Source of the DNA: Chloranthus sessilifolius
Taxonomy: Eukaryota > Streptophyta > Magnoliopsida > Chloranthales > Chloranthaceae
Direction: 5' to 3'
Length of the DNA: 64,000 bases
Assembly: GCA_021018995.1 (NCBI GenBank)
Contig: CM037597.1
Span: 31,746,936-31,810,935, forward strand
The stretch's first letter is position 1, and each line of letters starts with the position of its first letter. Of the stretch, positions 2,150 through 44,865 are shown one piece after another. Below the pieces are notes generated by a model, which saw only the letters and a program-made list of their open reading frames with translations, had not been told where the DNA came from and did no database searches. Both the position numbers and the translations under genes were made by a program.

Positions 2150-2674
2150 TTTTTATAGGTATACGGATAATTGCGTGCATAGGGGAATGTGCGCAATTTT
2201 TCAATTGCGCACATGGCCTTCCGCGTGTAATTAAATTACGAGCATGAAACCATGCATGCAATTCCCTGAAAGTCGATCACCGACTGGGGAATGATCGACT
2301 AACTAGCTCAGCCAGGTATCCTAGTTCCACTGTGCCATGGAACCAATTATGTGCATGGACCCATGCGCATAATCAAATTATGCGCATGGAATCATGCACA
2401 TAATAGGTGAATTCAGGCAGTCATGGGAATCAAAGACCTGGTCCAACTCTGGACCAATTGCGCGCATGTAGCCATGTGTGCAATTGAATTGCGCACTTGG
2501 AGTCAAGTGCGTAATTGTGCACGGAAGGTGTTCCCTAGTCCAACTTGGACCAATTGCGCACATGTATCCATGCTTGCAATTGAATTGCGCGCCCATGTTC
2601 AAGCGCGTAATTTTGGATCCTCCCGAGCCTAGTCGAGTCTGAGTCAATGGGTTGAGATTTCAACCCAGAGCTCC
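2150..2674 (-). mobile_element. Left LTR remnant of Tat/Ogre-like element B, part 1
   Basis: This matches the right LTR of B from its TATA box outward: TTTATAGGTA at 2152-2161 corresponds to 18178-18185, and each is followed at once by a hairpin array. Part 2 is 10990-11149; element A inserted between them. The portion equivalent to 17477-18170 is missing on the left, where Pro-rich coding sequence abuts. Confidence 0.6.
2168..2614. repeat. Array of about nine imperfect hairpins, word AATTGCGCAC/AATTATGCGC
   Basis: Each unit is about 30 nt: a 10-13 nt arm beginning AATTGCGC or AATTATGCGC, a loop of 4-8 nt, and the inverted arm. Units are visible near 2170, 2199, 2233, 2343, 2374, 2456, 2486, 2552 and 2582. 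One unit uses a different word (AGTCGATCA...TGATCGACT, 2270-2300). Confidence 0.85.
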
Positions 2675-3320
2675 TGACCGGCTTATAGTATGTATATATT
2701 TAAATTAAAATCAATCCTTAACCTATCCTATTGCAAGCGCACAATGGAAATTATAGAACTAGTGATAGGATCGATCCCATGAAGAAGTGATTAACTTTTT
2801 ATAGATTTTTTTATTCATTTTTTAAAAACTATCTTTATCTTTTAAGTCCTAAACTACTAGAGAAATATGAATAAAAGAATATTTTCTTAATCTAATTGTA
2901 TAAAAATAACTCCTAATCCTCCTTCTTCAGATTGAGGTTGTCAATCTCAACCTTCAGCTATCAGATGTTTATAAATTTAAAATACCATTACACCGTATTG
3001 TTGCCTTCCAGAATTTGGTCATCAATCAAAAACTAAAATTCTTCAACACAGATTTAATCTAATCAACAATCTCCTAAAATCTGGGTGTCAATCAAACTCG
3101 AGAAAATTGAAGATGGAAAAGTAAAACCATTATACTAATCTGCAAACTTTAACCTGAGTCGTTAATTCAAATCAAAATTTGAAGATGTTTACGAAACATA
3201 TAAAATCTAAAATAAAAATAAAATAAAATTTAAACTACTTTAATCGGGAGAAAACACAGACCTCAGTTGTCAATTGATGTTGTGAAATTCTTCGATGATT
3301 ATTCCTATGTCGAGCCCTCT

Positions 3321-3330
3321 TATTTATAGA
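3321..3330 (-). promoter_or_regulatory. TATA box of element A LTR
   Basis: The minus strand reads TCTATAAATA. The hairpin array begins about 300 nt upstream in transcription sense. The right LTR has the same box at about 10260-10270. Confidence 0.55.
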
Positions 3331-3629
3331 TCATAAGGAGTCGATTTACAGAGTTCTAATTCAAATTTTAACTCTAAAAGAAACTACTAAAATAAAAGAT
3401 TCCTAATATAACTCCAATTCTAATTTTATTCTTCCTTGCTTTCAACGATTGATGTGTTCTGAATTTCTTTCTTTGATAGTAGCAGCAGAGATCTTAGGAG
3501 CCTATCTTCATCAATCTCCTAGATCCGTCATTAGCCAAACTTTTATTAAAGAGTTCTTCTAATTCTGTTCTTAGCGGTGATAATTCTCACATGATCATCA
3601 GCAGCAATAGAAGTAACGAGAAAGTTTCT

Positions 3630-3935
3630 ATAATCGCAATCGTAAATCACGATTATCCTTTTTCTTCTTTTTCTTAGAAAATCATAAATTACGATTTTCT
3701 ATCTTTCATAGCTTCCTCAGTAGACGATTCTCTAATTCACAATTCTTCTGTATCGCCTTTTACTCTTTTGTCACTTTCTGAAGAATCTTATTTTGAAGAA
3801 TCAAAAATTACAATTTCTGATTTTTTCTCTTCTTTGGCTTCAGTATTAGCACTCAATCGTAAAATACGATTTCTCAACTTTCAGTAGGTGGCAAATCGTC
3901 TTCTTACGCTCAATCATCTTTTTACTGTTTTTGGA
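3630..3935. repeat. Hairpin cluster, word AATCGTAA...TTACGATT (left LTR of A)
   Basis: Several imperfect dyads built on AATCGTAA/TTACGATT and GAAAATC/GATTTTC occur near 3638-3655, 3675-3700, 3720-3750, 3795-3820 and 3853-3875. They lie in U3 upstream of the TATA box. Confidence 0.7.
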
Positions 3936-4078
3936 GTTTATTTTGATGAATATTAACACTCTAGCTCTCTTTTATTATTTTTCTTTAATATATGTACATC
4001 AGCATCTTATTAGTAGCAAACTAAGTCCTAGCATCACTAAGTTAAGGGCTATAAAATGGTATATTCTGTGACTGATCA

Positions 4079-4096
4079 TACCCCCAAACTTAAACT
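4079..4096 (-). other. Polypurine tract of element A
   Basis: The minus strand reads AGTTTAAGTTTGGGGGTA directly before the LTR start TGATCAG. It marks the second-strand priming site. Confidence 0.85.
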
Positions 4097-4140
4097 TTTC
4101 TAGTCCCTAGCGAACAAGAAAATATAAACTAAGAAATTTA

Positions 4141-4230
4141 ATGCCACTTTCATAGGGAGCACGATTGCATTTAGCAAATGCAACAAGCCTTTAAACCCCT
4201 AGATGATCCATAGTGGAGGAGTTATAGTCT
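4141..4230 (-). other. PPT-proximal block shared by elements A and F
   Basis: This stretch is almost the same as 36822-36905 in element F, although the LTRs of A and F differ. The shared part includes GCATTTAGC, AACAAGCCTTTAAACCCCTA and TAGTGGAGGAGTT. It is non-coding on both strands. Confidence 0.8.
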
Positions 4231-6202
4231 CCTGAAGGGTTTCAGTGAAGTTACTTATAAACTTCAAATATATTATTATTATTATTTTATTTTATTTTCT
4301 AAAAATTAATAAGTATAAATCAAACTAATCTACTTAATTGCTCAATACATAATCTATTACGATTTTCTAAAATTACCAATCATTTATCCTTATTTTTCAT
4401 TACAATAGTTATCCTTGATTAGAACTCCAACAATTTCAATTCACAATAAGCACAGAGTGTATATGCACTAGTGAACAGTTTATTCTTCATAATTTTTTCT
4501 AAATTGCAGATTTAGAAAATGTTTTCATTTAAAAACTCACTATTGACATACTCTCAAAAAGATATTGAAACTTTTGGGTTCTCTCAGTATATTTTTCAGA
4601 AGAATTCTGTCAAAAATAATTACAAAAATGAATCTCATAGACAAAATAATCCTATCATATTCTTATGATTCCCTGTACAATCTATAATATCTATTATCCT
4701 TATCTCTTATGGTATCAGAGTCACTCGGCTTATGTGTTTACAAATCATAAATCAGAAAGGTCTTTCCTTTAGCTTGTAATGGGGTTTTGGGTTTCAAAAG
4801 GTATCAAGGAAAGGTAGAAAAGGATTCAAAGCTTTTCTGAGAATTTAGCTCTTCTTTTTTCTATCTTCTTCTACTATTCTTCTTCAGTAAGTATCCATGA
4901 TTGGATAACTTCTTCCCATTTTTCTCTTTTTGTATATATATCCCAGTTCTTCAGCTATAAAATCGTCTTTTACGAATTTTCTTTTCTTTATAACTTTTTG
5001 CCAAATCGTAATTTTCTTTTTCAAAATCATTTTTTTTATGATTTTTCTTTCTTTTCCCATATTCTCTTTTATTTCTTTTCTCTGTACCTCGTCTAGCATT
5101 CCCTTTATCTGTTCTTCTTTTACTCCTTTCACTCCCTCTTCTTCCTTTCTTTCCTTCTAAACTCTCAGAAATTGTAATGGCTAAAGGTAGAAAGCTTTGG
5201 GTAGTACATATGGTTGAAGGTTTATAAAATTTTAGTATAAAAAAGTTTCGTTTTAAGCTTCTAATATGGATTCAAGGATAAAATGTTCAGGGATTTTAGC
5301 TTTTTGGCTCTGATTTAAACAAAAGATGGCTTTAAATTATCTTGACGATTTACAAGCATAGATGTCTTATTGCTTTGATATTTCTAATAGATAGTTCTAG
5401 ATAAAAAATCAATTCATCATATTCATAGAATAATTTTATTCTAAATTCAGCAATATAAAATTTCATATTAGTATAGAAGTTCAAAGAAATTTTACGATTT
5501 GAATAGAAACAGTCTCTCTCGGAATAAAAGAGGAAATATGGCTCAAAATCTCACTGGTTCATTATTTTTGAAACTATAGTCTAAATTTTTGCAGTTTAAA
5601 TCAATCTATTGTTTCAAACATTCATTCTAATACAGTGTTTCAATGAGCTAAGCATGAATTATAACTGTTCTAAATTCTAATTATTAAACTTCTATTATAA
5701 TGAATCATAAGTTTTCGGGATTTGTAATTTCTTCTATCATAATTCCTATGCACTAATCAGAAAAAAATTTAAAATTAATAAAACTACTATACACAGAAAT
5801 TATGTATCCCCCAAACTTAAATTAGATAATGCCCACATTGGCATAAAAAATAGGGGACACAAAATAAATAAATAAAATTATTGATATACTAATTATTTAC
5901 CAAAAAAAATATGTTACCAGATATATACTCTCTCCCAAACTTGAGAGAAAATATCCGCGACTTATTCTCGGAGTATCAATAACAAAAATGTTAATAAGAA
6001 GAAAAAAAAAATGTTAGTGATGTTAGTAACCCACACTGTTAGTAAAAAAATGATAGTTAGTAAAAGAAAAATTTTATATTACTGAATATTTACAATGAAC
6101 AGAAAAATAAAAGTAAATAAAAATAATTATATAAAAGAAAATAAACCTAGGAAAAATTCATTGAGATGATACATGTGATGTTTATGATGTTCTGTTATAT
6201 TT
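4231..6202. other. Non-coding 3' interior of element A
   Basis: AT-rich sequence with T-rich runs (about 4900-5160) that make short shadow ORFs. A TAATGGGGTTTTGGGTT motif near 4777 has a counterpart near 37502 in element F. No conserved coding sequence is seen. Confidence 0.6.
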
Positions 6203-7560: not shown

Positions 7561-7569
7561 AACATAACT

Positions 7570-7675
7570 ACGATCAATCGTAAATCCATACGATTTTCTA
7601 TTAAGCTATACAGTAGGTATGAATTACGACCTATCGCTTTTTAACGAAATAGGTCGTATTATAATACCTATACTA
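7570..7675. repeat. Internal hairpins of element A
   Basis: Dyads AATCGTAA...TACGATTTTC and ACGACCTATCGC...AATAGGTCGTA repeat the LTR hairpin word between the accessory ORF and gag. Around them (7561-8229) I see no other gene. Confidence 0.65.
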
Positions 7676-9227: not shown

Positions 9228-9485
9228 GAAGAAAAGAAAACTCTATATTTAATATTTTTAATTTTATATAATTTGTATTCTAGAAATCAAGGAGAGAGAA
9301 TAAATCTAAGCCTCGAGCTTTGCTGATCAGGGGAAGTTGAGACTCAGAGTCGTCGCTCCGAATAAACCTACGAAAGATTAAGAAGTGATTCAAAGAAAGT
9401 TAAAAATATAAAGAAGTATAAAAAGAGAAAGATAAATATTTATTTTTAAAATGGCAATATAAACAAAAATAAAAGATAAAGCGCT

Positions 9486-9503: not shown

Positions 9504-9509
9504 GAAACT

Positions 9510-10989
9510 TGACCGGCTTATAGTATATATATATTTAAATTAAAATCAAGCATTAACCTATTGTAAGCGCAAAATGGAAATTATAACACTAGTGATAGGA
9601 TCAATCTCGCGAAGAAGTGATTATCTTTTTATAGATTTTTATATTCTTTTTTTAAAAACTATCTTTATCTTTTAAGTCCTAAACTACTGAAGAAATATGA
9701 ATAAAAGAATATTTTCTTAATCTAATTGCATAAAAATAACTCCTTTTCCTCTTTCTTCATATTGAGGTCGTCAATCTCAACCTTCAGCTATCGGATGTTT
9801 ACAAATTTAAAATAGCGTTACACCATATTGTAGCCTTCCAGAATTTGGTCGTCAATCAAAAACTAAAATTCTTCAACATAGATTTAATCTAATCTACAAT
9901 CTCCTAAAATATGGGCGTCAATCAAATTCAAGAAAATTTAAGATGGAAAAGTAAAACCATTATACTAATCTGCAAACTTTAACCTGAATCGTCAATTCAA
10001 ATAAAATTTGAAGATGTTTACAAAGCATATAAATTCTAAACTAAAAATAAAATAAAATCTAAAATAGAAAGCAAAAGTAGAACCATCCAAAGGGTTGATC
10101 TTTTAGCTTCCTCAGCCTTGGTTGTCAGGCAAAACCTCAGAGAACTGTGGACGATGTTACTTTGTAAATCCTAAACTACTTCGATCGGGAAAAAATACAA
10201 ACCTCAGTTGTCAATTGATATTGTGAAATTCTTCGATGATTATTCCTATGTCGAGCCCTCTTATTTATAGATCATAAGGAGTCGATTTACAGAGTTCTAA
10301 TTCTAATAAAAGAAACTATTAAAATAAAAGATTCCTAATATGACTAATTCTAATTTTATTCTTCCTTGCTTTCAACGGTTGATGTGTTTCGGATTTCTTT
10401 TCTTAATAGCAGCAACTGAGATCTTAGGAGTCTATCTTCATCAACCTCTCAGATCCGTGGTTAGCCAAACTTTTAATTAAAGAGTTCTTCTAATTCTATT
10501 TTTGACAGTGATAATTCTCACGTGACAGGAAAGCTTCTATAATCGCAATCGTAAATCATGATTATCCTTTTTCTTCTTTTTCTTAGAAAATCGTAAATCA
10601 CGATTTTCTATCTTTCATAGCTTCCTCAGTAGACGATTCTCTAATTCACAATTCTTCAGTATCGCCTTTTACTCTTTTGTCACTTTCTGAAGAATCGTCT
10701 TTTAAAGAATCGTAAATTTTGATTTCTCATTTTGCTTCTCTTCTTTGGCTTCAGTATTAGCGCTCAATCGTAAAATACAATTTCTCAGCTTTCAGTCGGT
10801 GGCAAATCGTCTTCTTATGCTCAATCGTCTTTTTACTGCTTTTTGAGTTCATTTTGATGAATATTAATACTTTGACTCTCTTTTACTATTTTTCTTTAAT
10901 ATCTACACATCAGCATCTTATTAGTAGCAAACTAAGTTCTAGCATCACTAAGTTAAGGGTTATAAAATGGTATATTCTGTGACTGATCA
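9510..10989 (-). repeat. 5' LTR of element A (1480 bp)
   Basis: Partner of 2675-4078. TATA box at about 10260-10270. It has about 100 bp near 10060-10170 not present in the other copy, so one LTR has suffered a deletion there. Confidence 0.95.
10535..10830. repeat. Hairpin cluster of element A (right LTR)
   Basis: Second copy of the AATCGTAA/TTACGATT cluster of 3630-3935, with small differences in individual arms. Confidence 0.7.
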
Positions 10990-11149
10990 ACTCCAACATT
11001 CGTTATTTGTATGGTGTATGAGTTTCGGATGTGGGTTTTCAGGGGTTTTAAGACTTTTGGAGAGGATTGGTTCCTTTTTGAAAGTTATGAGAAAATTCAA
11101 AGGTTGACCAAATAGGTTTTTATACTCTAAGAGGGTAACAATGGGGTGT
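10990..11149 (-). mobile_element. Left LTR remnant of element B, part 2
   Basis: On the minus strand the terminus reads TATAGACACCCCATT, matching TGTAGACACCCCATT at the outer edge of the right LTR of B (18756). About 60 nt next to it are clearly similar between the two LTRs. The expected terminal TG is degenerate (TA). Confidence 0.6.
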
Positions 11150-12085: not shown

Positions 12086-14649
12086 TGGTGGGTAACTAGC
12101 TCTCCTAGGTTGGTATCCTACATTAATTTTGGGGTGTTGGTGTAGATTTTGGTTTTTGTTAGGGTATTGGTTCGTGTATTGGTGTTGTTTTTGGTCATTC
12201 TAATTATATGGATGAGAGTTTATCTAGTTTTGTTCTTGGTTCGTGTTGATTTGTTTAGGGTTTAGGGTCTTCATTTTTGGGTTATTAGGAGAAGCTCCCT
12301 CATATGTTAGCATCGAGAAAGAGAAATCTCTATTCTTAATGTGCCATTGTATGCACAAGGCACGTAGATGAAGACTAGAGAAGTCAGGGTAATCATTTAA
12401 AACAAGAGCACTCCAAAGCCCTCGGGTATTATTAATCACGATATCTATCGCGTCCCTTTCTTTTATTTGATTCCCTATTTGGGCGGCGAGCTTTCTCCAA
12501 CGACTAACAAAGACTGCAAAGTTTTCATCAATCCTTTATTTTGTAGCCATTAGGTCGTTGAGATTAACAGCTTCATGAATTAGATATTTGTATTGGTCTA
12601 GAAATCTACTGGCTAGGTCATCGAATGTCTCGATTTTGTGGAGTGGCAAATCGGCAAACCATTTAAGGAATTCTTCTTCTAAAGATCCTTGAAAATAATG
12701 AATTAGAAGTCCGTGATTATCGCGTATTGGTCGACAGTCGTTACAAAAGAATGCCAAGTGGTGATTTGGATTTCTCGTACCGTTATACTTGTTGAATTTT
12801 GGCGGTTTAAAACCTGCAGGTACAGTAAATTCGATATCTCAGCAAAATTTGTCAAATCTGAAAGAGTGGTTTGGATGCTCTCTTTTATCCATGTAATTAT
12901 CTAGGACTTGAGTAAAGTCCTCCACGGTCATAATGGTGTTTTTCTTTGAAGTCTCAAAGACGGATTGACCTCAACAATCACGACTGAATAAGGTGCATTC
13001 GGGAGGTGACACTGGTGGTGTCTGCAACCTCTCTTAGTGTTTGTTTTCTAAGTTTACCTGTTCATCGATGACACGTCCTTGATCATCCACAACCTATTGG
13101 CCACAGATGCCTTGGTACAAACCAGCCAAAGCTCGAAGTAGAATCTCATATTCTTATCCTCCTTTTGACAGTGTATGGACACTGAGGTTTACAATTTGTT
13201 TGGTGGTACAATTTAGCCTTGTGACAGCCCGATTTTCCCTAAGCCACAAAAACCTACACAATATTTTTCTTCTCTTATTACACACCAAAATTCAGGGAAA
13301 ACCGGACCATTGGATCACACATCATAATCCGAACACAGAAATTACTTGGTATTATCCACGTACCAACATGGAAAAACAAAGCAGATATTAAACATACCTG
13401 AAAATGTAAAATTTGATATCACCAGGCAGATCTAAAACTTTAACTTTATACATATCAAGTCCAAAGACTTAAAGCCCCAAAATCCACCATACAAACCCAA
13501 AAGTGCCCAGTCCAGAACTCACCTAAGGTAAAATTCTCCAAACGGAGATCCTAAGCCTTTCTCCAAAGTCTGCTCCTGATCCTCACCTGTACCTTTGATG
13601 AATAGTCGAGGGATGAGCTACATCTAAGCTCAGTAGAGAAACATCAATAACATGCATATTATCACATCACACATATATCTTATAACAAAATCGAACATCC
13701 TTCTCACATAAAGACTCACAATTTAAAAAATATTTGACTTGAAGCAAGACTAATATCACACACGAATTTTTTCTTTGTTTAAAGCTTAAACACATGATTT
13801 CAAAACTTATTCTCATAACAAAAGAAAAACTTAAACTGATAACTTAAATAATCCCCGAGCACTATAGCATCGAGCCCCGATGGAATACCCACCATCGTCA
13901 TTCAATTGAACCCTTTTAATATGTTACACAAGCCTCTTCGATGGAGGTGACTTGCGGAATGAATCTTACCTCAGAATGATAATCAAAGAGCAGATATCTT
14001 GCTACACCGGATTCACAATTTACCATAAAATGGTAATCAAAGAGTAGATATTCTGCTGCACCATATTCACAATTTGTACGGATATACCGCCATACCGGTT
14101 TGGTATCATTCATAACCTTAAATCAAAGTGCAACAATAACTTATAGTTCATCACCGTGTATTGTGGTAATTTATATTAAGTTTGGAGTTTCAAAACTTTC
14201 ACACCATAGGTTTGAAGTTTCAAATCTTTCACACACGCATATCTGATTTCACACACACACACACACACATATACACTTTTGATGTTCAAAACCATAAAAG
14301 AACTTCATGCTATCCAAATGACAAGTTTCATAAATCACACTTATATTTCTCACATCACAAAATTCATGCTAAATACATGACAAATTACGCACCACACACA
14401 TGTCTTATCATATCATAAAATGCATACTAATCGTAACCAATACACATGTTAAGGATTTTTCCCTACCTCACACGAAGTCACACTCAAGTCCTTAGCTCAA
14501 ATTTAGCCTTCCAAGCCCAAGGCTCAAGTTCACACATAACACATATGAGTTTATGAACACAACGTCAAAATGATGAAAAACAGGAAGAAAATAGGTCTTC
14601 CCCAAAGTCTGGAACTAAAAAACAAAACCCAAACTTAACTGTTCAAAAT

Positions 14650-14975
14650 TGACCGGTCGAATCCCAAATCGACCGATCGGTTTTCCCTCTGAAACCAGAC
14701 CATATTCACCCAACTAGTCGATCTTCCAAATCGACCGGTCGGATTCCACGATCGACCGGTCGAATTAATTTGACCAATCGAACTCCCCAAAACTATATTT
14801 TATAAACTTTCTGTTTTATGAAAATCAACCAGTCGAATTAATTTCAACCGGTCAGTTTTCAAAATCGACCGGTCGATTTCCATTTGGTCGGTCGGTTTCG
14901 GGCTAAAATCTTTAGATCTCCAGACTTGACAAAATCGATCAGTCGGTTTCTTAATTCGATCGGTCGATTTTGTCA
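14650..14975. repeat. Array of GACCGGTC palindromes in the LTR of element C
   Basis: About ten copies of a 14-16 nt palindrome AATCGACCGGTCGATT or close variants (for example near 14650, 14669, 14731, 14752, 14828, 14850, 14866, 14936, 14957), spaced 17-40 nt apart. The core contains a CpG. Confidence 0.88.
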
Positions 14976-15277
14976 GATTTCACCCAGTTCGGGTTTGGAC
15001 TTCTCAAACCCATTTTCCTTCAAATTTTTACCTTTCTTCTTCTAATTTTTCATCCATAAACATAAATCAAATTAACTCAACTCGAAATCATAATTTTAAC
15101 ACAATTTCCATACCTTACATTGATCAATTTCTAAATTCACGCTCTCACACGCAACTAGGGTTTCAAAATTTGAAGCTTTTGATTCCACATGATCCCAAGT
15201 CCGCGATCTCATGCAAAACCTTAAATCCTTGCATGCACAAGCCCACGTACACAAGCTCTCTCCCTTCTCTTTACTCT

Positions 15278-15279
<2 letters not shown>

Positions 15280-15310
<31 letters not shown>
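15280..15310. repeat. (CT)n microsatellite
   Basis: About 15 CT units inside the LTR of element C. It causes a spurious Arg-Glu-repeat ORF on the minus strand. Confidence 0.95.
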
Positions 15311-15311
<1 letters not shown>

Positions 15312-15576
15312 AGAACCCAAAGCATAAGAGAAATAACTTCTCTTGCCTAAAAACCCCTTTTTATGTTTTAAAGATAGGCTTGTGTGTTAAAATACACCGA
15401 AGCTTGGTGTATATGAAATCATCTAATGACCCACACACCATCTAAACCAACCTTTTTCACTTAAGACTCAACCCCAAATAACTTACTTAATGTTTTTCAC
15501 AAAGTCAGGTATGTGACCAGTAGGACACGCACACCAAGGCATACTGTTCACAAGTCAAAAATTTTGGGATGTTACA

Positions 15577-15594
15577 TTCTTCCCACCTTATAAA
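15577..15594 (-). other. Polypurine tract of element C
   Basis: The minus strand reads ATAAGGTGGGAAGAA directly before the LTR start TGTAACATCCC. Confidence 0.7.
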
Positions 15595-16094: not shown

Positions 16095-16689
16095 AAACTA
16101 GGGTTATCAAATCATGTGTTTAAGCTTTAAACAAAGAAAGAATTTGTGTGTAATATCAGCCTTGCTCCAAGTCAAATATTCTTTAAATTGTGAGTCTTTA
16201 TGTTAAAAGCATGTTCAATTTTGTCATAAGATATATGCGTGATGTGATAATATGCATGTTATTGATGTTTCTCTACTGAGCTTAGATGTAACTCATCCCT
16301 CGACTATACATCACAGGTACAGGTGAGGATCAGGAGCGGACTTTGGAGAAAGGCTTAGGATCTCCGTTTGGAGAATTTTACCTTAGGTGAGTTCTGGACT
16401 TGGCACTTTTGAGTTTGTATAGTGGATTTTGGGGCTTTAAGTCTTTGGACTTGATATATATAACATTGAAGTTTTAGATCTGCCTGGTGATATCAAATTT
16501 TACATTTTCAGGTATGTTTGATATCTGCTTTGTTTTTCCATGTTGGTACATGAATAATACCAAGTAATTTCTGTGTTTGGATTATGAAGTGTGATCCGAC
16601 GGTCTGATTTTCCCTAAATTTTGGTATGTAAGATGAGAAGAAAAATATTGTGCAGGTTTTTGTGGCTTAGGGAAAATCGGGCTATCACA
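16095..16689 (+). repeat. Inverted copy of the LTR head in element C
   Basis: This is the reverse complement of about 13220-13810. It ends with GGGCTATCACA, the inverse of the LTR start, and contains AGATCTGCCTGGTGATATC, the inverse of about 13417-13435. The two arms could form a stem of about 590 bp. Confidence 0.92.
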
Positions 16690-16890
16690 ATTGGTTTTAA
16701 AGATAGGCTTGTGTGTTAAGCCAATACACCCAAGCTTGGTGTACCCACACACCATCTAAACCAACCTTTTTCACTTAAGACCCAACCCCAAATAACCTAC
16801 TTAATGTTTTTCACAAAGTCGGGTACGTGACTAGTTGGGCACGCATACTGAGGCATACTATTCACAGGTCAAAATTTTTGGGATGTTACA
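16690..16890 (-). repeat. LTR tail of element C (second copy)
   Basis: Direct copy of about 15360-15576, ending GGGATGTTACA at the TSD. Confidence 0.92.
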
Positions 16891-17473: not shown

Positions 17474-18175
17474 ATCTGTTGGTACACGTTTTTCAGGAAC
17501 TCTCTTGAATTCGGAAAAATGGCCCAATATGGTCGCATGGGACTCTATTTGTGAAAAGGGGGAGAAGAGATTTACCAATGAGGGTATTTATATGTCCACC
17601 TGCATGGAAATATTGTTAGTTGCAACTGAATTTAATATATACCTGGGTTGTGATCGCCATCTACAGATGTTTATCGACGTTGTAGAATGTCATTGATCCC
17701 GAGGATGAGCGGGGGGTTTGGATTTAGACTCCTATACTAAATATCGGCCTGCTAGCTATAGCAGCTAGGTTTGCCTAAGATTTTAACTAATTTGGGGTTT
17801 TTCTAATCCTAAATAATCTAACTAAAGGGGTATGTTGGCCCCTTATGCGCAGGAGGATCGAACCTATTCCCGAGTACCCTCTGTTGGCTCCCTTGGGAAA
17901 ATCAGTTTGATGGTTATGATTGATTTTGAAAATATGATGAGAATATGGGATGTGACCCTGATTGGATCTAAGTTGAGAATTTCGATAGGGGTTTCCTAAT
18001 GGTTGAATCTAAAGCTAGCTTTATTTCTCTTCGGACTACTTGAGAATCGAAGTAGACGGCCCACCTCAATTAGAATTCAACTCAATTCTATTGCAGAATC
18101 TCAAAGCCATCCTCGAGAATTCCAAAGAGAAAAAGCAAGTGAATGATGTGTGTAGAGAATGAATGGGATAGGGGG

Positions 18176-18184
18176 TATTTATAG
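18176..18184 (-). promoter_or_regulatory. TATA box of the element B LTR
   Basis: The minus strand reads CTATAAATA. The hairpin array begins about 10 nt upstream in transcription sense. The left LTR remnant has CTATAAAA at 2151-2158 in the same relation to its array. Confidence 0.6.
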
Positions 18185-18189
18185 GTACG

Positions 18190-18640
18190 GCGAATTATAT
18201 GCTTGGAGTCCAGCGTATGATTCAAAATTATACGCTGGAAGTCTGACATATATTTAAGATTATATGCTAAGACTCTAGCATATAATGAATTACACATTGT
18301 GGTTCCAACGTATAATTCAGGCGGCTAAGGCGGAGGTCAGTCAACGTGACTGGATGGGTTTGAGAGTCCCAGTCCAAAACGGGCTGATTATACGCTGGTA
18401 TAATCAGTCCCAGTCCAAAATGGACTGAATTATATGCTTTGTTTTAGTGTATAATCCGGAGAGCAGTTCGGTTCACGAAGTATTTGAGTCCTAGTCCAAT
18501 ACAAACCAATATACGTTGATTATATGTTGTGATTCCAGCATATAATCAGGAACTCATCCCGAGCTAGGTCGAGTCCAATTATACGCTGGGAGTCTAGTGT
18601 ATAATCAATTATACGCTAGAGCTCTAGCATATAATTATCA
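18190..18640. repeat. Array of about seven hairpins, word AATTATACGCT
   Basis: Units of about 30 nt with 10-12 nt arms AATTATACGCT / AGCGTATAATT and a variable loop often containing GGAGTC or GAGCTC. Clear units lie near 18193, 18226, 18252, 18425, 18509, 18577 and 18608. AT-rich arms with one CpG. Confidence 0.88.
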
Positions 18641-18759
18641 GAAAGAGGGTTTCAAGATTATTGAAAAATGTTAGTTTTTCCATAAATCTGGGCAATGTCA
18701 GTAGTTGACTGAAAAATTTTGTATACTCCGAGAGGTTGAAAATGGGGTGTCTACAGGTG

Positions 18760-21046: not shown

Positions 21047-21222
21047 ACTCAAGCTCCCGAGTTAGCGGGATCACTTGTCAAGCTCCCGAGTTAGCGGGAT
21101 CACTTGGACGGGATATCAAGCTCCTGAGATAGCGGGATCACTTGGACGAGATATCAAGCTCCAGAGTTAGCGGGATCACTTGGACAAGATATCAAGCTCC
21201 CGAGTTAGCGGGATCACTTGTT
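21047..21222. repeat. 38-bp tandem repeat, five units
   Basis: Unit TCAAGCTCCCGAGTTAGCGG followed by GATCACTTGGACGGGATA; the first junction lacks the last 9 nt. The other LTR has four units. Confidence 0.92.
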
Positions 21223-22955: not shown

Positions 22956-23051
22956 CCCCTTGAGGTTACCCTCTGCCGGCAGCTTGCAACTTGACGATCT
23001 TCTTCTTGGCTTTTTATACAGTGCTCCCCCCCTTTTTACTTATATATACTT

Positions 23052-28225: not shown

Positions 28226-28928
28226 CCTGTAGCAGCCCTACTTTTCCCCTTCTCGTAAATGGGAAAGGTCGCGCCGTCAGATCACCTAACATGGTCCTGT
28301 CATATAAGGGCATCGTGTACAAAGTGTTACATATGCGGAAGCGAATTTAATTAACTCTGATACGAAGAAATATGGCAACAACTGATATCCATTCCTTTAT
28401 CTAAGCAGTAAATTGAACAGGAAATATAATAGAAACCTATACCTGAAGTAGTAAACTATCTTAATTCACACTGCTGTTTATACATATTTAATGTTTAAAA
28501 ACAAATCTCTATCTCTCCCAAAGATCTCAAGGAAAGAAGTCCTCAGTAGAACCTTCCTCCTAATCCTCCTCCTCAGACTGGTAGGTAGGATCAGCTTCAT
28601 GCTCAGGGTATTAGCAATATCTGCAGCTAAGACATAAAGTCGTAGGATGAGCTATCATCAAAGCTCAGTAGGGAAAATTAAAATACTAATTTATATGTTA
28701 GATTATCCATTCATGTCTAGATACAAAATAATACGAAACACATGTCATCTTATATTAGGTATATTCTAGCATCCATATATCCTAGCAGTATATAACAGAA
28801 CAAGCACTAAATCAGGCAATTATTGTATCATGCTGACAATGCTGACATATTCATACTGACAAGGAATCAGGCGAGCTCAATGAATCATGCTGAAACAAGA
28901 CATGTACAAGAACAAGAAATAAGAAAAT

Positions 28929-29063
28929 CAAGCTTCCGAGTTAGCGGGATCACTTGTCAAGCTCCCGAGTTAGCGGGATCACTTGGACGGGATATCAAGC
29001 TCCCGAGTTAGCGGGCTCACTTGGACGGGATATCAAGCTCCCGAGTTAGCGAGATCACTTGTT
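28929..29063. repeat. 38-bp tandem repeat, four units
   Basis: Same unit as 21047-21222, with one unit fewer. Confidence 0.92.
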
Positions 29064-30311
29064 TCAAGATGAATTAAAGACGTGTATATGACATCAAGGA
29101 TAATAGAACATGAACAATGCATACTAACATATATGCAACAACATCATGAACAGATATGATATAGCAAAACTGAACTAGTATCACTGAGTTAGCATAACTC
29201 TTCATATTCATGCGTTGAAACTGATCTTATCATCATTCGTACATAACTGATCGTATCATCATTTATAATCACACATCTAACTGAATTAGCCTAATAGTCC
29301 TACGGCACACTACTTGAATCCTTATCATGCATATTTATTCATCAAAACTTAACACGTGCATAGTCATGCAAAGGCATTTATCTAAACTAAAATTAGCATA
29401 ATCATTAATATTCATCTATTGAACTGAGCTAACTATTCATCAAAACTGGTCTAGCATCTTCATTCATTAGTCATACGTCAAATCTGACCTATATTTTCAT
29501 CATGATTTATAAATTCATCTATCTCTAGCCTTGATTATTATACATGATTATACATGAGCAATACATGATCATTATTAATCAGAACCATTCCTCTGAACTG
29601 ATAGAGTATTATTCTATTATCACTATATATTTGAGCATCATCCTTTACCCATAAATCAACACTGAATTCATTAGTATCATATCCATCCCAACTGACATGA
29701 GTTCATTATACAAACTGACATTATCACATGCATTTGTCATCAACAAAATTAATTGGCATCCTTATAAATCTCTAATTATCATTTAAAATTGCCTTTATAT
29801 TCAAAGATTATCATACTGACATATATTCATAAAATAATCCTATGTCGAGCTGAACTAGCATGATTCGAGCATCAAAATTCATGGTATAAACATATATGGC
29901 TTTGATCTTACTATCCTCATAGCTTAGTATTCCTCAGCAGAACTAGCATAACTAGCATATGGATTAAACTGACATAAGCATAATTATAATTTGCTAATCA
30001 GGAATGAATTCAAAAATAAAATATAAATTAACAATGTAAACTCCCTACCTTACACCAGGTTTACGTGTAACTAGTTTCCCGTACATGCTCGTCTTCAAGC
30101 AAACCCGTCATGTGTACCAAGTGGCACCTAGAAATGTCGTTCATAGGTTTAGTATTTTTAATTGTTTATTGGGTCAACATAGATCCCAAATATGGACCAT
30201 TTATGGTCCCAAGTCTCATGGTCAAACTCGGAAAGTCAACCCAGCACAAACCCCTGACAGAGGTGTCGCCAAGTGTGTTAGATGCAGGGTTGCCGTTGCA
30301 AGCAACATAGG

Positions 30312-30801
30312 TTGCCGCGGCAAGCTTTGCAGTTGCATGTTATCATAATTTGTCACTACTTTTTGACCCCTTAAACATTGGATTCAGAAATTGGTTCCTT
30401 CATGAAAGTTGTAGGGCCCGTTGTTCCCTTTCCAAAGCATCAAGAAATGTGTCAATCCAAGTTCAATATCAAAAGATATGATTAAAATATCACACCATGG
30501 TCTGAGTATACTGTTGCCGCAGCAAGCTTTGCAGTTGCATGTTGCCGCGACTTGTCACTACGTTTTGACCCTTTAAACGTTAGATTTAGAACTTAGTTAC
30601 TTCATAAAAGTTGTAGGTCTCGTTGTCTACTTTTCATCCTATTACAAATCGTGCCATTTGGAGTTTGGGGTCAAACGATATGATCAAAATACCACATAGT
30701 GGTTTGAGCATAGGGTTGCCGCGGCAACACATAATGCTTGCCGCGGTAAGCCACTCAGCAGAGTGTCTTGCCGCGGCAACCCCTTGAGGTTGCCGCGGCA
30801 A
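30312..30801. repeat. TTGCCGCGGCAA palindrome array (second LTR of E)
   Basis: Perfect copies start at 30312, 30716, 30768 and 30790. Degenerate copies lie near 30290, 30513 and 30736. Number and spacing differ from the sister LTR. Confidence 0.93.
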
Positions 30802-30883
30802 GCCTGGCTTGTTGGGCTTCAGCTGGTCTTCTTCTTGGCTTTTTTATCTGTTGTGCTCCCCCCCTTTTTGCTTATATATACTC

Positions 30884-36064: not shown

Positions 36065-36075
36065 CTTATTTATAG
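36065..36075 (-). promoter_or_regulatory. TATA box of element F LTR
   Basis: The minus strand reads CTATAAATAAG. The other LTR has a mutated form at 42202-42210. The GACCGGTC cluster starts about 140 nt upstream in transcription sense. Confidence 0.55.
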
Positions 36076-36217: not shown

Positions 36218-36510
36218 GTTGTGACCGGTCAAACTGGATTCTCGATCGGTCAAACTTTAGATTAATTCTCAAGGTCGCGAATGCTTCACGGGCTTCAGAT
36301 TTGCTTTGAGTTCCTGACCGGTCGAGCTGGTTATGACCAATCGACTTTTGTGTTTTTGAAGCTCGTCTGCATTTGACCGGTCGAAACTGACATTCCGATC
36401 GGCCCAAATGGATCCATTTCTTCTTCTCTGTTTTCTTCCTCAGGCACCTCTTTGTTGTGCGATCCTGACCGGGCGAGAATGCAGTCTTGACCGGTCAGAA
36501 TGACCATTCG
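36218..36510. repeat. GACCGGTC palindrome cluster (left LTR of F)
   Basis: Copies and variants near 36223, 36245, 36316, 36335, 36374, 36395, 36466 and 36490, mostly TTGACCGGTCRAA-like. Same core word as in element C. Confidence 0.85.
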
Positions 36511-39250: not shown

Positions 39251-39483
39251 GACGAAAATGGGTTCAAGGAAAAGGGTGGAAGGAGAAGAAAGTGGATGAA
39301 ATTATCAAGATGGGGCCTGATATTATAATGGAAAAGGGTGGGGAAGGTGAAAGGTTGTGTTTAATGAGGGATGTGGAAGGTTGGAAGGTGAAAGGGTGCG
39401 CCAAAAAAAAGACAAATTCAAAACAATGGGCAGGGCTCAAGGAAGAAGGAGCGGATGGGAAAACTAGGGCAAGACTAGTCAAA

Positions 39484-39780
39484 ATGAGATTTCGATCGGT
39501 CAAAAGGGCTTTATATAGCCCAGGGCCCATGGACTCGACCGGTCACAAAATGAGATAAATACTATTTCTCCAGCAAAGCTTCTGTTCTAAAGCTAAATTC
39601 CCTTATCTCGATTGGTCAAACTCTATTTCGACCTATCAGAACATAGCAAAACAATAACAAAAACTCTGGTTTCTGTTGTATTCTATAATTTCGACCAGTC
39701 GAAATCCGCTACAGTTCTTTTTTCTTGAGCAACTCGACCGGCCAAAATCTGTTTTGACCTGTCAAAGTCTAGTAAAGAAC
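39484..39780. repeat. Internal GACCGGTC-type cluster of element F
   Basis: Variants near 39491, 39535, 39607, 39630, 39690, 39735 and 39754, just upstream of the small ORF in plus coordinates. The LTR word thus recurs inside the element. Confidence 0.75.
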
Positions 39781-40128
39781 TCAGTTCTCAGCCCAGATTT
39801 TATTAACACCAACTTAAAGACTTCTAAAAATAAACAAACTTAAAACTTAAATTAATAATATACATGGTGCTTAGGTTGTGTCCCAAGAAGTACTACGGAT
39901 GCGTCGGCAGCTCGACAAGGTCAAAGTGCTCAGGGCACTTACGGGCCAAAGGAAGAAGAAGTCTCCCCAGCCATTGCTTGACCTTTTGGATTAGTTACCG
40001 GTTGAGACGGTAACCGAGCCTCTTCTCTCTTATTTAAAGAAATCGCTAGTTTCCCAATTTGGGTTCCTAGCGCGGTCGTAGAATGCATGAGAGTGTAGAG
40101 TAAATGTTCTTGGTGTCGGCCTTGGAGG

Positions 40129-41309
40129 CTAATTATTTCTCCACATTGAGTTGGTTTGCCCAGACAGATTTGAATGGTTCCTCCAGCTTGGATTGTAAAT
40201 ATTTACACAACTAAAATTATTATTCAATTGTTGGAAGGAACTCACTGCAGCAGGATGTTCTAGAGTCAATGTGGGGTATAAAGGGGCAACAGGGTGTTCA
40301 GAAATTTCTTGAGCAAGGCTATGGTTGATGCCATAAACCTCACCTCTTAGAGATGTTGGGTGTGATTTTATACCTAACATGGACTGAAATTTCATCTTCC
40401 AAAGCTTCAACTTTGTAAGAAAGTCCATCTTTGATTTCAAGTTGTACAACCCGCCTCGCTTAGGAGGTGCACTTCTCAATTTCTCCGGATCAATCCTTCT
40501 CGATGCAACATGTTGCCTCAATTCCCCATTGAGGGTCTCAAAAAGTTCCCATGCATCCATTGCAATCAGTGTGAAAAACATACCCCCACAAGTAACATCA
40601 ATCATATGTCGGGTTTGTTTGTTAAGCCTTCATAGAAACTGAGCACCATTTCCCAGCACGAGACCTCATGGTGAGGGCAGTTATGCAGAAGCTTGTTGAA
40701 GCTTTTCCAACTCTCATGAAAAGACTCATTTGAAGATTGATAGAACGCAGTAATAGCCTTCTGAAATCGACTCATCTTGTAGATTGGGAAGTACTTTTTA
40801 AGAAATATGTTTTGTAACTTTTCCCAACTAGCAATCGAGTCGTTGGGCAAAGAGGTCAACCACTGGATTGCCATGTCTCTAAGTGAAAATGGGAACAACC
40901 TCAAATGATTGGCCTCTTCTGATAAGTTTTTAATTTTAAACGTAGCACAGATTTCTAGAAAACACGTTAGATGCATATAGGGATCTTTGTTACCATGCCC
41001 ATGAAAAATAGGAAGTAGTTGAAGCAAGTCGGGTTTGATCTCGAAAACCCCATTACCGGTGGCTGCAGGTACACAAATACATGAGGGAGGCGCTAGACTA
41101 GATGGTGTATAATACTCCCTCAACGTTCTAGCCATTTGTTCTTCTCCTGCCGTAATGAACCTGATTGAAAGTAGGGTGGCGCGGCTAGAACGCTCAAAAC
41201 TAATGACATTTTGAGAATAACCGAAGCTAGCGTGAATATGTTGGCACGTTTTCTCACGCACAAGGTCTAGTCGCTCAAGAGAGAAGAATTGCAACCTTAA
41301 CTTTAGCAA
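40129..41309 (-). pseudogene. gag of element F
   Basis: Two open segments cover nearly all of an Athila-like gag. 41309-40602 (235 codons) begins MLKLRLQFFSLERLDLVREK and holds ARTLREYYTPSSLAPPSC, the capsid signature FHGHGNKDPYMHLTCFLEIC, LRLFPFSLRDMAIQWL and LKKYFPIYKMSRFQ. 40605-40129 (158 codons) continues with DAWELFETLNGELRQHVA and APPKRGGLYNLKS. The two overlap by 4 nt in different frames near 40603, so one frameshift plus a stop near 40610 separate them. No zinc knuckle is visible. Closely related to gag of element D (the first 100 residues have the same motifs) and less closely to that of A. Confidence 0.9.
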
Positions 41310-41527
41310 AACAAAGGCTAAAAAATAAAAAGAAAAATAAAGTACTCATCCTAACTAATGAAAATCAAAAGCACGTACCTTAGCCTCTCGCAACATCCTG
41401 TGATAAGCCTTCGTTAAGTTAAAGCCTCTGATCTTCCTAGCCTAAAACAAAAATCAAAGAAAAATAGGGTTAGTATATGATACAGACATACAAAATAAAA
41501 TAGAAATTAAACAAGATAAAGCCAAAG

Positions 41528-41545
41528 TCCCCGACAGCGGCGCCA
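41528..41545 (-). other. PBS of element F (tRNA-Asp type)
   Basis: The minus strand reads TGGCGCCGCTGTCGGGGA, two mismatches from the element A PBS, 6 nt from the LTR. The leader 41310-41527 shows no gene. Confidence 0.9.
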
Positions 41546-41551
41546 AAAATT

Positions 41552-42847
41552 TGATCATTTTAAATCAAAATCTTTCAAGTGCACAAGTTCCAATGTACTA
41601 GGGCAAGTAGAAAGGTGTTGAACCATAGAGACTTGTCGTTTATCTTTATTCAATTTTTATTTTAGTTTAATAAAAGTATAAAATTAAGTTTCCTAAATAA
41701 ACTAAAATAAAAAGAAACCTAAAATAATTTTGAAATAAGAGAGGAGAAGGCAGTCTGAAATCTCTCTTAGATTTCAGACTGGCATATAATAAACTATATT
41801 TCTTTTTCTATTAATGAATCCTAGGTATCCCCCATTCTAGGCTACAAGCTCCGCCACTTCATATATGAATTAGATAAATCTGATTGTCAAGGCATCATTG
41901 CACATAACTGACTAAAACTACCCTACAAGGCCTAGTCCGTCGGTGAATATCTTATCTAATCCAACCACAATCCCTACAAGGCCACTGGAGTTAAACTAAA
42001 CAATATTACAGTATTACAATCACGTTCTCGATATATTCGGAACCTCGAACATGCAATCGTACCATAAACGAAATTTAAAATAAAAATAGAAATAAAACTT
42101 TATCTAAGAACTATATCTAACCTAAACTATGAATACTCACGCCAAAAACACTCTAGAAAGTCTGTCGTGGGAGTTCCGTAAAACCTAATCCTAGGGGTCC
42201 TTATCTATAGAGTATAAGGCCCTAGAACAATTATACACGGCAAATATCTCTCAAAAATCTCAAGAAATCAGGTGGAGGAAGAAGAATCTGGAAGGGATCT
42301 GCGTTGCCAGCGAAAATCCAGCTGGAAGGCTGATTTTTCACGCAAAAACTCTATTGCAACCGGTCGAACTGGATTCTTGACCGGTCAGACTTTAGATTAA
42401 TTCTCCAAGTCACGGACGCTTCGCAGGCTTCATATTTGCTTGAATTCTTGACTAGTCGAACTGGTTGTAACCGGTCGACTTTTGTGTTTCTGAAGCTCGT
42501 CTGCATTTGACCGATCGAAACTGACATTCCAACCAGTCCAATTGGATCCATTTCTTCTTCTCTGTTTTCTTCTTGAGGCACCTCTCTGTTGTGTGATCCT
42601 GACTAGTCGAGAATGCAGTCTTGACTAGTCAGAATGACCATTCGGTGCATTTCTTCACTGGTTCTTCTTGGATTATTGCTAAAGCTTCAAGTTTCTTCTT
42701 AACTTTGCTCTTTTAACTCATTTTTTATTTATCCAACCTTTGAACCTGTTGAAGCACAACATGAACTAAAAGCATCCATTAGTAGTTAAGTGAGAGCTAA
42801 CAAGACCGAGATTTAGGTATAAATTATACCATTTTAGAGGTCGATCA
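41552..42847 (-). repeat. 5' LTR of element F (1296 bp)
   Basis: Starts TGATCATTTTAAATC and ends GGTCGATCA. Carries its own GACCGGTC cluster. Confidence 0.95.
42355..42640. repeat. GACCGGTC palindrome cluster (right LTR of F)
   Basis: Counterpart of 36218-36510. Some copies have changed to GACTAGTC (42451, 42601, 42622), which keeps the palindrome while removing the CpG. Confidence 0.85.
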
Positions 42848-43336
42848 GCTTCCCAACTAGTAATCATATCTTTAGGAATAATTCAACCAATGTTTTGCCC
42901 TATCCTTGAGTGAAAAAGGGAACAACCTCAATCTAGTGTTATCTTTTGTGAGTGTAGTGATTTTTAAAATAGTGCACACTTTCATAAAGTCACCCAAGTG
43001 TTTTTAGAGATCTTCGTAATTTTTCCCATGAAAATTAGGAAGCATTTGAATAAAGTTGGGCTTGATCTCGAAGGTCTCATTACCGGTGGTTGCGGAAAGC
43101 CGAATACATGAGGGAGATAAAAGAGCGGAAGGAGTATAATACTCCCTTAATGTTCTAGCCACAGTTTGCTCTTCTCCCACCATATTAAATCTAAGAGGAG
43201 GAAGAGTCGGGCAATTAGTGCAGAAAAAACTGATAGACAGTTGAGAGGAACGTGCAAAGGCATGATTACGCCAAGTCCTCTCAATCTCAAGGTCGAGTCG
43301 CTCTAGAGATGGAAACTGCAATCTCAACCTTAGCAT
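42848..43336 (-). pseudogene. N-terminal half of gag of element D
   Basis: Starts at 43336 with MLRLRLQFPSLERLDLEIER, close to gag of F. Then ARTLREYYTPSALLSPSC and FIQMLPNFHGKNYEDL. A stop at about 43005 is followed by a readable continuation with LRLFPFSLKDRAKHWL up to element F at 42848. Gag resumes at 35292. The leader 43337-43534 shows no gene. Confidence 0.88.
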
Positions 43337-43534
43337 AGACCACTAAACAAATAAAGGAAATAACTAAACAAAATCTAGAAATAGAGATACATACCTTAAC
43401 CTCTCGCGCTTATCCCTTGTGAAGCTTCTGTAGACTCGAACCTCGGTTTCCAAATCTGGAGAAAACAAAAAACAATGATTAGAAATTACTAATATAAACC
43501 TAATTAAAAGACAATAATTCAAAAAAAGTCATTG

Positions 43535-43552
43535 TCCCCAACAACGGCACCA
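43535..43552 (-). other. PBS of element D (tRNA-Asp type)
   Basis: The minus strand reads TGGTGCCGTTGTTGGGGA, the A-element PBS with two G-to-A-type changes on one strand, 6 nt from the LTR. Confidence 0.88.
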
Positions 43553-44649
43553 AAAACTTGATCGTTAAATAATATAAACCTTGCAAGTGCACAAGTTCAT
43601 AGAACTAGGGCAAGTACTAAGGGTGTCAAACCACAAGGGCTAACTGTTTATCTAGATTAAAGCCTTGACTAGAAAAAGGGTTTTAGAAGTAAATCTAATT
43701 ATAATTATCTAAAAAAAGTAATATAATCATATTTGAAAAGTAATAGAGAAAACAATCTAGGATCCCTCTTAATCGCAGATTCGTAATAATTCACAATTCT
43801 ACTCCTAATCTAATTTGAATTTAGGGTAATAACCTTCTTTTCTCTACAAGCTAAATCTAGGTAAAATAATCAGATCCTATTCATAGTCATGAACTAGTCG
43901 GGACGATATAACCCATCTAATTTCTAGCGATCTAATCCGTAAGCACCAGTCCACAAAACCAATCAAGCTAGACTACAAGTACTAATTTGAAGAATAATAT
44001 TTTATTAAATCTAATCCTAATCCCTACGAGGCGATTTTGATTATCAAAAGCAAAATTAAAATGCTTTAGAATCATTGACATAAAAACCAGAGTGAATATC
44101 AATCATGCAATCATTACCACATAAATTCAAACTAGAAAAGGAAATAGAAATTTAAATTAAAACTTATCTTTGATTTACGAGAGATCCCAAACTTTGGAAA
44201 CTAGTCATGCATCGTGGTTCTGATCTTCATCATCTCTTATTTGACCATAGAATGATAGTTTACAATTCCCTCAATCTCATAAACTCTCTAAATATGAAAA
44301 CTAGAAAACTATGAAACTAAAACTAGAAACTCTTAATTGGAAAGCTCTCCCTATTCTAAAACCTAGGGTAAGGTTCTAGTACATTGAGAAAAACTAGGAA
44401 AAATTTTCTAAAATAACTCTAAATTGAATTGGGAAAGAGTGGATTTTCGAACTTTACAATTATAGAACTACCAACCTTGAACCACGCTGAAATTCCTAAT
44501 CTCGAAAAAAGGTCATTTTCAATCCCACTTCAGTTCAATGTATGAGCTACCACTTCAACTGTTTGGATTGCTCACATCTAAAAATGGTTTTTTACTAAAA
44601 GGTTGTCCGTGTCAATTTTAATTAATTACTAAAATATAAATATAGAGGG

Positions 44650-44658
44650 TATTTATAG
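44650..44658 (-). promoter_or_regulatory. TATA box of element D LTR
   Basis: The minus strand reads CTATAAATA. The hairpin cluster starts about 40 nt upstream in transcription sense. Confidence 0.55.
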
Positions 44659-44693
44659 ATGACCAAAAGATTGCAACACAGGCTGAATACGAG

Positions 44694-44865
44694 TTACTTC
44701 GGGGTTAGCCTACCGAAGCGTGTTTAGCCTTGTCAATTTGTTCCCTCCAAATAAAATCGTCTTTGGGGCAAACCCATTGAAGCGTACTTCAGTGGGACTG
44801 CGTCGATATTATTATACATGCTTCGGTGGGGCTTGGGGCTGCCCCACTAAAGTTGAAGTTTAAGT
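44694..44865. repeat. Hairpin cluster, word CTTCGGTGGGGC/GCCCCACTAAAG
   Basis: Three imperfect stem units: ACTTCGGGGTTAGCCTACCGAAGC (44697 onward, arms CTTCGG/CCGAAG), a unit with GGGGCAAACCCATTGAAGCG and CTTCAGTGGG, and CTTCGGTGGGGC...GCCCCACTAAAG (44821-44852). Confidence 0.7.

Follow-up and report, generated by a model that had tools for sequence, protein, structure and literature searches.

LTR retrotransposons of the window

A nest of long terminal repeat (LTR) retrotransposons lies in a 64,000-nucleotide stretch of the Chloranthus sessilifolius genome (assembly GCA_021018995.1, contig CM037597.1, positions 31,746,936 to 31,810,935 of the forward strand), which as a whole we call the window. 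The subject of this work is the set of clusters of short palindromic words that the LTRs of this nest carry. Self-comparison of the window gives, among others, the clear LTR pairs A (2675-4078/9510-10989), E (20345-24076/28225-31908), and F (35291-36713/41550-42847). The limits of the remaining LTRs were set by eye from their ends: C is a single LTR (13222-15588), B-right occupies 17480-18738, D occupies 43560-45010, and B-left is split by A into 2148-2674 and 10990-11148. We read each of these LTRs on the minus strand. The remainder of the LTR that hosts the A insertion ends near its own TATA-like box, and directly to the left of this B-left fragment is a plus-strand open frame (164-1222) with a sub-threshold Pfam Transposase_32 match (35.5 bits, cut-off 45). 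The C element is rearranged, with inverted 588-bp copies of a stretch of its LTR at 13219-13806 and 16103-16690 (93%) and an additional partial copy at 16694-16890.

In a Pfam scan, E has an Integrase_H2C2 match above the cut-off, an RVT_1 match slightly under it (27.9 versus 29.6 bits), and a weak Chromo match (20.9 versus 25.1), domains that by our reading place E among the Ty3/gypsy chromoviruses. The interior of F encodes Retrotrans_gag, a Ty3-type gag, of which no relatives were confirmed in viral_contigs. The remaining elements presumably belong to the Athila, Tat, and Tekay groups, labels that we take from LTR and primer-site features. An integrase fragment had at least 120 hits with 51-70% identity, and wherever such a hit carries an organism name it is that of a plant. 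Rfam gave no match at gathering scores.

Inverted-repeat excess and the words of the clusters

A first-pass annotation of this DNA had proposed that every main LTR family in the nest carries its own cluster of short palindromes or hairpins. The palindrome clusters are a real feature. When 12-mers with at most two mismatches were counted, 9 of the 10 cluster regions, which were chosen from those named in the annotation and do not include E-right, had more inverted repeats than all 200 dinucleotide shuffles; the B-left region (2140-2676), for example, has 107 inverted matches, against a mean of 12.4 and a maximum of 28 in shuffles. A-left had no excess in this test (92 of 200 shuffles reach it). 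By exact 8-mers counted over whole LTRs, both E LTRs, both F LTRs, C, and B-right beat 200 of 200 shuffles, but no excess was found in A-left (158 of 200 shuffles reach it), A-right (26 of 200), or D (151 of 200). In substance the claim holds; the clusters are strong in four of the six families (B, C, E, and F), and for A and D it goes too far.

Scans across the window gave a similar picture. The top scores among 319 windows of 400 bp fell mostly on the named clusters, together with fold-backs near 45.2 and 58.4 kb. Among the matches listed, a sliding 8-mer scan peaked at B-left, C, B-right, E-left, E-right, F-left, and F-right, weakly at A-right, and not at A-left or D; its other peaks were at the fold-backs (45.1-45.5 and 58.4-58.6 kb) and, more weakly, near 46, 52, and 61 kb. 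Both fold-backs resemble miniature inverted-repeat transposable elements: that at 45119-45540, beside LTR D, is imperfect (~420 bp, 74% self-inverse), and that at 58419-58573 is near-perfect (155 bp, 94%) and sits among AAAGCATAAAA repeats. Sixteen 1.4-kb control stretches were taken from the window as well: 12 lay inside the shuffle range, and the other 4 were reached by 0 or 1 of 100 shuffles, so isolated inverted-repeat-rich stretches exist outside LTRs also.

Exact counts confirm that the words named earlier are present in the window. TTGCCGCGGCAA has 11 copies, divided 7 + 4 between the two E LTRs; GACCGGTC has 10, 4 near 14.7 kb, 4 near 36.3 kb, and singles at 39,537 and 42,379; AATTGCGCAC has 3 forward and 1 reverse; AATTATACGCT has 3; and AATCGTAA has 9 forward and 5 reverse, spread across the window. 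The D word, CTTCGGTGGGGC, was found exactly only once. That each family has words of its own is too strong a statement, as GACCGGTC is common to C and F. Nor do B-left and B-right, previously taken for the left and right LTRs of one element, look like products of one insertion, since they gave no alignment with one another at E 1e-10 when the window was compared with itself; a scheme of six families with six words was dropped for these two reasons. As palindrome clusters, A and D are qualified cases: A consists mainly of direct repeats with one clear hairpin, and D has visible but weak, degenerate units.

Observed/expected ratios of CpG are 0.78-1.95 in 10 clusters versus 0.51-0.87 in 7 other LTR pieces. 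Read from the words themselves, those of C, E, and F have a CCGG or CCGCGG core, and a CGG-CCG core is missing from AATCGT, AATTATACGCT, CAATCGATTG, and CGCTCGAGCG.

Recurrence in an independent region

The clusters also recur beyond the window. In an independent 200 kb (G000 C1:60.0-60.2 Mb), chosen blindly, we found 23 array hits versus 0, 0, 0, 1, and 0 in five block-shuffled versions; the corresponding numbers for the window are 8 versus 1, 2, 0, 0, and 1. The array words of the 200 kb are mostly new (TCAATCGA, TCGATCGA, CGCTCGAG, GATACGTA, ATTTCGGC, and others). This region gave 11 direct-repeat rows, of which six LTR-like pairs of at least 500 bp were tested. Four of the six (P1, P3, P5, and P7) show the 8-mer inverted-repeat excess in both copies, the weakest being the right P7 LTR (9 of 200 shuffles score at least as high), and P2 and P9 show none. 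The ends of P1 and P7 adjoin, by eye, a methionine-tRNA-type primer site; none of the 23 array hits falls on P7 or on the left LTR of P3. Throughout the 200 kb, 10-bp palindromes with a CG center are in threefold excess (73 versus 24.4 expected), and those with GC, AT, and TA centers are at 1.06-1.2 times expectation.

Position of the arrays within the LTR

In 16 of 16 LTRs the array lies at a relative position of 0.00-0.44 from the LTR start, where some limits are by eye or self-match and A-left, B-left, and the 39.5-kb cluster are left out. A TATA-like box follows the end of the array by 6-250 bp in 11 of the 16, against 3.0 with random placement and 0.5 on the opposite strand, a count to be read in light of the fact that the TATA-like pattern was drawn up after the sequences had been seen. 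By this pattern, both E LTRs, C, F-right, and the left P7 LTR have no box in that interval. The position of the array is thus enhancer-like in most of the LTRs, and in E it possibly falls in the transcribed leader.

Spacing of palindrome centers

We searched the genome (2.17 Gb) for pairs of the same word separated by a gap of 1-31 bases, with reversed patterns as controls. These counts cover CGCTCGAGCG, CAATCGATTG, TTGCCGCGGCAA, CGACCGGTCG, and CGATACGTATCG. There are 18,695 pairs of CGCTCGAGCG, 24,156 of CAATCGATTG, 988 of TTGCCGCGGCAA, and 416 of CGACCGGTCG, and the reversed control gave 0 for each of these four words. An arbitrary CG palindrome, GTTCGCGAAC, gave 0 pairs and its reversed control 1.

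The pairs are concentrated at particular distances. In the 50 first-listed pairs for each word, which are the first plus-strand places on contigs C1-C2 and so a non-random sample, centers are 21-22 bp apart in 38 for CGCTCGAGCG and in 41 for CAATCGATTG. For TTGCCGCGGCAA, 26 of 50 are at 21-22 bp and 15 at 29-31, and for CGACCGGTCG, 35 of 50 are at 19-22 bp and the other 15 at 38-41 bp, close to the limit of the search range. After spacers had been collapsed at ~65% identity, 14 of 24, 9 of 27, and 14 of 23 spacer groups fell at 19-22 bp, versus 3.1, 3.5, and 3.0 expected if all 31 gaps covered by the search were equally likely; the low mean identity of the spacers (0.35-0.41) is partly built in by the collapsing. 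For CAATCGATTG, 12 spacer groups at 22 bp came from 32 distinct spacers among the matches listed, where similar alternate spacers also occur.

A test that did not depend on chosen words gave the same distance. In the 200 kb, same-word palindrome pairs peak at 20-22 bp (35 versus 1.7 in shuffled sequence, with TCGATCGA-type words counted in multiple registers), and different-word pairs have no spacing peak. Half of the CpG-bearing listed pairs come from the LTR pair P5; removing the P5 LTRs leaves 24 pairs at 20-22 bp, spread over 23 places, and the next-best 3-bp bin has 12. We found no earlier report of a 19-22-bp doublet spacing in the literature searched; a 2016 Genome Research study of maize, to which we return below, may treat spacing.

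Copies and decay of the words

Relatives of D and E were used to follow the fate of the words. A D query just downstream of the TATA-like box had 1,051 candidates genome-wide, of which 40 were scored; besides D, all 42 matches listed begin at query position 136 or beyond, with 70-91% identity. Nothing in the 14 relatives retrieved, a set from which D itself (L025) was excluded, matched the stretch of D upstream of this (44641-45010) more closely than E 0.18. Nevertheless, 13 of the 14 relatives (all but L028) have at least 5 units, allowing 4 mismatches in 14, of a different palindrome around CTCGACCGGTCGAG, and 21 bp is the commonest step, in 36 of 90 successive spacings. With 3 mismatches, a reversed-word control gave 1 unit versus 86. 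It appears that an array has been retained near the D position while the word differs between D and its relatives. For E, 14 diverse pieces were cut from 54 matches, and 10 of them keep at least one exact TTGCCGCGGCAA; the other four (L047, L048, L051, and L053) have none.

Changes in decayed units are mostly C/G transitions (137 of 178 in the D relatives and 44 of 51 in E); as C and G abound in the words, composition accounts for part of this. The 14 D-relative pieces have 69 C>T and 68 G>A changes, and the 16 E pieces 30 G>A and 14 C>T. Such a pattern is expected where methylated C has been deaminated in either strand, and it suggests that dead copies are methylated.

Features of the window

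The coordinates of the arrays and boxes are collected in the table.

Table. Palindrome arrays, related clusters, and TATA-like boxes in the window
Feature	Position	Strand	Basis or remark
TATA-like box adjoining B-left array	2150-2157	-	
B-left array, ~30-bp dyad units (AATTGCGCAC / TGCGCATAAT words), in LTR fragment interrupted by A	2187-2612	-	inverted-repeat test
A left LTR, decayed AATCGT cluster without inverted-repeat excess	3613-3920	-	limits by eye
TATA-like box of A right LTR	10262-10269	-	
A right LTR cluster, mainly direct AATCGT repeats plus one hairpin with 11-bp stem	10520-10840	-	
C array, CGACCGGTCG units	14640-14970	-	no TATA-like box found nearby
TATA-like box of B-right	18176-18183	-	
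B-right array, ~30-bp dyad units (AATTATACGCT..AGCGTATAATT)	18190-18640	-	
Second array of E left LTR, 29/38-bp units, ~4 copies, inner CCCG..CGGG inverted repeat in each	21049-21220	-	inverted repeat by eye
E left LTR array, 7 exact TTGCCGCGGCAA	22447-22960	-	
TATA-like box of E left LTR	23011-23018	-	array begins ~60 bp downstream
Second array of E right LTR, 29/38-bp CCCG..CGGG units, ~3 copies	28928-29061		
E right LTR array, 4 exact TTGCCGCGGCAA along with decayed ones	30306-30811	-	
TATA-like box of F left LTR	36067-36074	-	
F left LTR array, TGACCGGTCA units	36220-36500	-	
Extra degenerate GACCGGTC cluster between the F LTRs	39480-39760	-	
TATA-like box inside the 39.5-kb GACCGGTC cluster	39510-39517	-	
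F right LTR array, F-left units decayed at CpG	42360-42640	-	no box by the pattern used
TATA-like box of D	44650-44657	-	
D cluster, degenerate CTTCGGTGGGGC units in both orientations	44688-44865	-	exact 8-mers not significant

Discussion

What could account for arrays of this kind? We consider it somewhat probable, judging from sequence, that they are promoter-proximal LTR arrays of sites for dimeric proteins, set out as doublets for which cooperative binding is predicted. The arrays would be regulatory elements near the promoters of LTR retrotransposons, and their units would be short dyad-symmetric DNA sites, mostly containing a CpG. The sites would be used chiefly as doublets with a center-to-center distance of 19-22 bp, or roughly two helical turns, and in E also of ~30 bp. 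A homodimeric protein could then bind cooperatively as a dimer of dimers, and the bound protein would either activate the LTR promoter or hold off silencing; protein binding, cooperativity, and activation are what we infer from the place, words, spacing, and decay of the arrays. The near-constant distance between centers, for palindromes that range from 10 to ~20 bp, points to the geometry of DNA, and the variety of words among families implies that more than one factor, or more than one member of a factor family, is involved. Of the possibilities raised in the first-pass annotation, a dimeric-factor site as a recurrent, selected feature is the best fit to the place of the arrays, to centers spaced alike across differing spacers, and to the lack of a G-U bias, with a folded RNA as the lesser possibility.

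Several observations weigh against the proposal of doublet sites for dimeric factors. First, not every array fits the description, as A and D are weak by exact 8-mers, and 17 of the 23 array hits in the 200 kb lie outside all 12 tested LTRs; the other 6 overlap them, one by 33 bp only. Second, the E arrays lie downstream of the nearest TATA-like box, by 60 bp in the left LTR and 444 bp in the right, and the pattern search found no such box near C. Third, 21-bp spacing is not universal. The 7,184 genome-wide pairs of CGATACGTATCG are mostly 14 and 26 bp apart among the matches listed; its spacers are nearly uniform among those listed (L005-L024, G000 C1:60.0-60.2 Mb), so that it looks like a single copied family. 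B units repeat with a period of ~30 bp, and some of the longer spacings (33, 46, 49, and 70 in the D relatives; 39 and 52 in E) do not amount to a whole number of turns. In the 200 kb, P5 supplies about half of the pairs in the apparent peaks at 41-43 and 62-64 bp, which fall to 8 and 9 pairs without it, and we do not claim a 21-bp ladder (21, 42, 63), whose upper steps are unremarkable once P5 is removed. The first-listed sample behind the spacing counts of single words also belongs on this side.

The palindromes could instead act in RNA, as hairpins of the LTR transcript that serve packaging or dimerization or as a source of small RNAs for silencing by the host. In favor of this, and against sites read in DNA, the folds of the two arrays that we examined as RNA, B-right and C, are stronger than those of all 100 shuffles made for each (z -10.6 and -7.0), and papers that cite the 2016 Genome Research study of maize describe the palindromes of Sireviruses as small-RNA hot spots. 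But centers kept ~19-22 bp apart by palindromes of such different lengths leave no fixed loop size. Moreover, selection on a hairpin in the sense RNA would favor C>T changes, because C>T leaves a G-U pair, and the decayed units of the 14 D-relative and 16 E pieces show no skew toward changes that keep G-U. Finally, an array upstream of the TATA-like box, as in 11 of 16 LTRs, would enter the transcript only close to its 3' end. A role in RNA seems unlikely.

It is also conceivable that there is no selected function, and that strand switching, slippage, or hairpin copying during reverse transcription multiplies palindromes in LTRs and other repeats. Tandem duplication does enlarge some arrays, as shown by the 202-bp tandem units in the E array and by the similar alternate spacers, and the 17 of 23 array hits outside tested LTRs make short palindrome arrays no LTR specialty. 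Against this, words are kept while spacers differ, at CpG sites that decay fast; placement relative to the TATA-like box is non-random; and the exact word survives in 10 of 14 E-relative pieces. We regard the absence of function as quite unlikely.

If sites for dimeric proteins are the correct explanation, then one doublet architecture (~21 bp) might be common to Ty1/copia-like and Ty3/gypsy LTRs, with the word as an exchangeable key to the family, as D and its relatives could illustrate. Such keys would fit diversified cooperative dimeric factors in lock-and-key fashion, whether host or self-encoded, and would set which family escapes silencing. We offer this extension tentatively and think it doubtful as a whole; the array of D itself is weak, and its 13 relatives share ancestry and so are not independent instances of word exchange.

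A related scheme is that each family encodes a protein of its own that binds its arrays and removes silencing marks, in the manner of VANC of VANDAL. The targets of VANC are likewise short motifs, specific to the family and densely packed within non-coding transposon regions, with fast motif turnover and a link to methylation (PMC5735166). The arrays described here have family-specific words, D and its ~80% identical relatives have different words at an equivalent place, and the decay pattern suggests methylated dead copies. Unlike these arrays, however, VANC motifs are reported there to have a single orientation rather than to be palindromic, and they belong to DNA transposons rather than LTR retrotransposons. 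Furthermore, the VANC system has a known element-encoded binding protein, and no candidate gene for one was seen here (Pfam scans found no anti-silencing gene, and no other search for one was made). GACCGGTC is common to C, F, and the relatives of D, which a host factor fits better. We regard an element-encoded protein as quite unlikely, too.

Binding by dimeric factors, should it prove correct, would have several consequences. If the LTR promoters of unrelated retrotransposons have converged on one geometry, each with words of its own, a direct search for the factor that recognizes it becomes feasible, with the words and the 21-bp spacing as baits. A feature thought special to Sireviruses would extend to Ty3/gypsy elements, and there would be a sequence-level handle on why certain families escape silencing. 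In addition, tens of thousands of palindrome pairs in one genome amount to a large pool of potential regulatory sites.

Comparison with known systems

Repeated sites in LTRs are familiar from the heat-shock element clusters of ONSEN and the repeated boxes in the U3 region of Tnt1, both of which are transcription-factor sites upstream of the TATA box. In those cases the host factors are known and the units are few.

A literature search by motif letters returned 516 papers containing any of six words, and the 15 among them that were listed are by title not related to transposons. Work on insertion targeting of palindromes (PMC6911290) deals with insertion sites and not with LTR arrays, and was set aside. 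More generally, one later paper states that transposable elements often have regulatory regions composed of arrayed repeats, which are sometimes palindromic.

The closest precedent is in the Sireviruses. The first-pass annotation knew of no standard LTR feature that would predict such clusters, but palindromic repeated motifs were described in 2010 for 13 Sireviruses, in the upper half of the LTR and forming CpG islands shortly before the TATA box (PMC2829016). According to that paper, the motifs have a CGG-CCG core in all except Tnd-1 and are absent from the other Ty1/copia elements compared (Bousios et al. 2010, PMC2829016). The likeness to our arrays is considerable: in both, palindromic units are repeated in the LTR (here strongly in B, C, E, and F and weakly in A and D), the words vary from element to element and mostly contain CpG, and the array is in the upper LTR half (16 of 16 LTRs here). 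The TATA box shortly downstream may have its counterpart in the 11 of 16 LTRs counted above with the post hoc pattern. The published Tnd-1 word, ACAATCGATTGT, even includes CAATCGATTG of this genome (PMC2829016). There are also differences. The Sirevirus motifs were reported as specific to that Ty1/copia group, whereas the domains of E point to a chromovirus and the gag of F is of the Ty3 type; several of the words here do not have the CGG-CCG core; and the arrays here contain 19-22-bp doublets, whereas spacing goes unmentioned in the available text of PMC2829016. As far as could be seen in the literature searched, it is the presence of such arrays in a Ty3/gypsy chromovirus, their scale, and the 19-22-bp doublets that are new; the arrays of this genome otherwise resemble those of the Sireviruses and probably work as they do.

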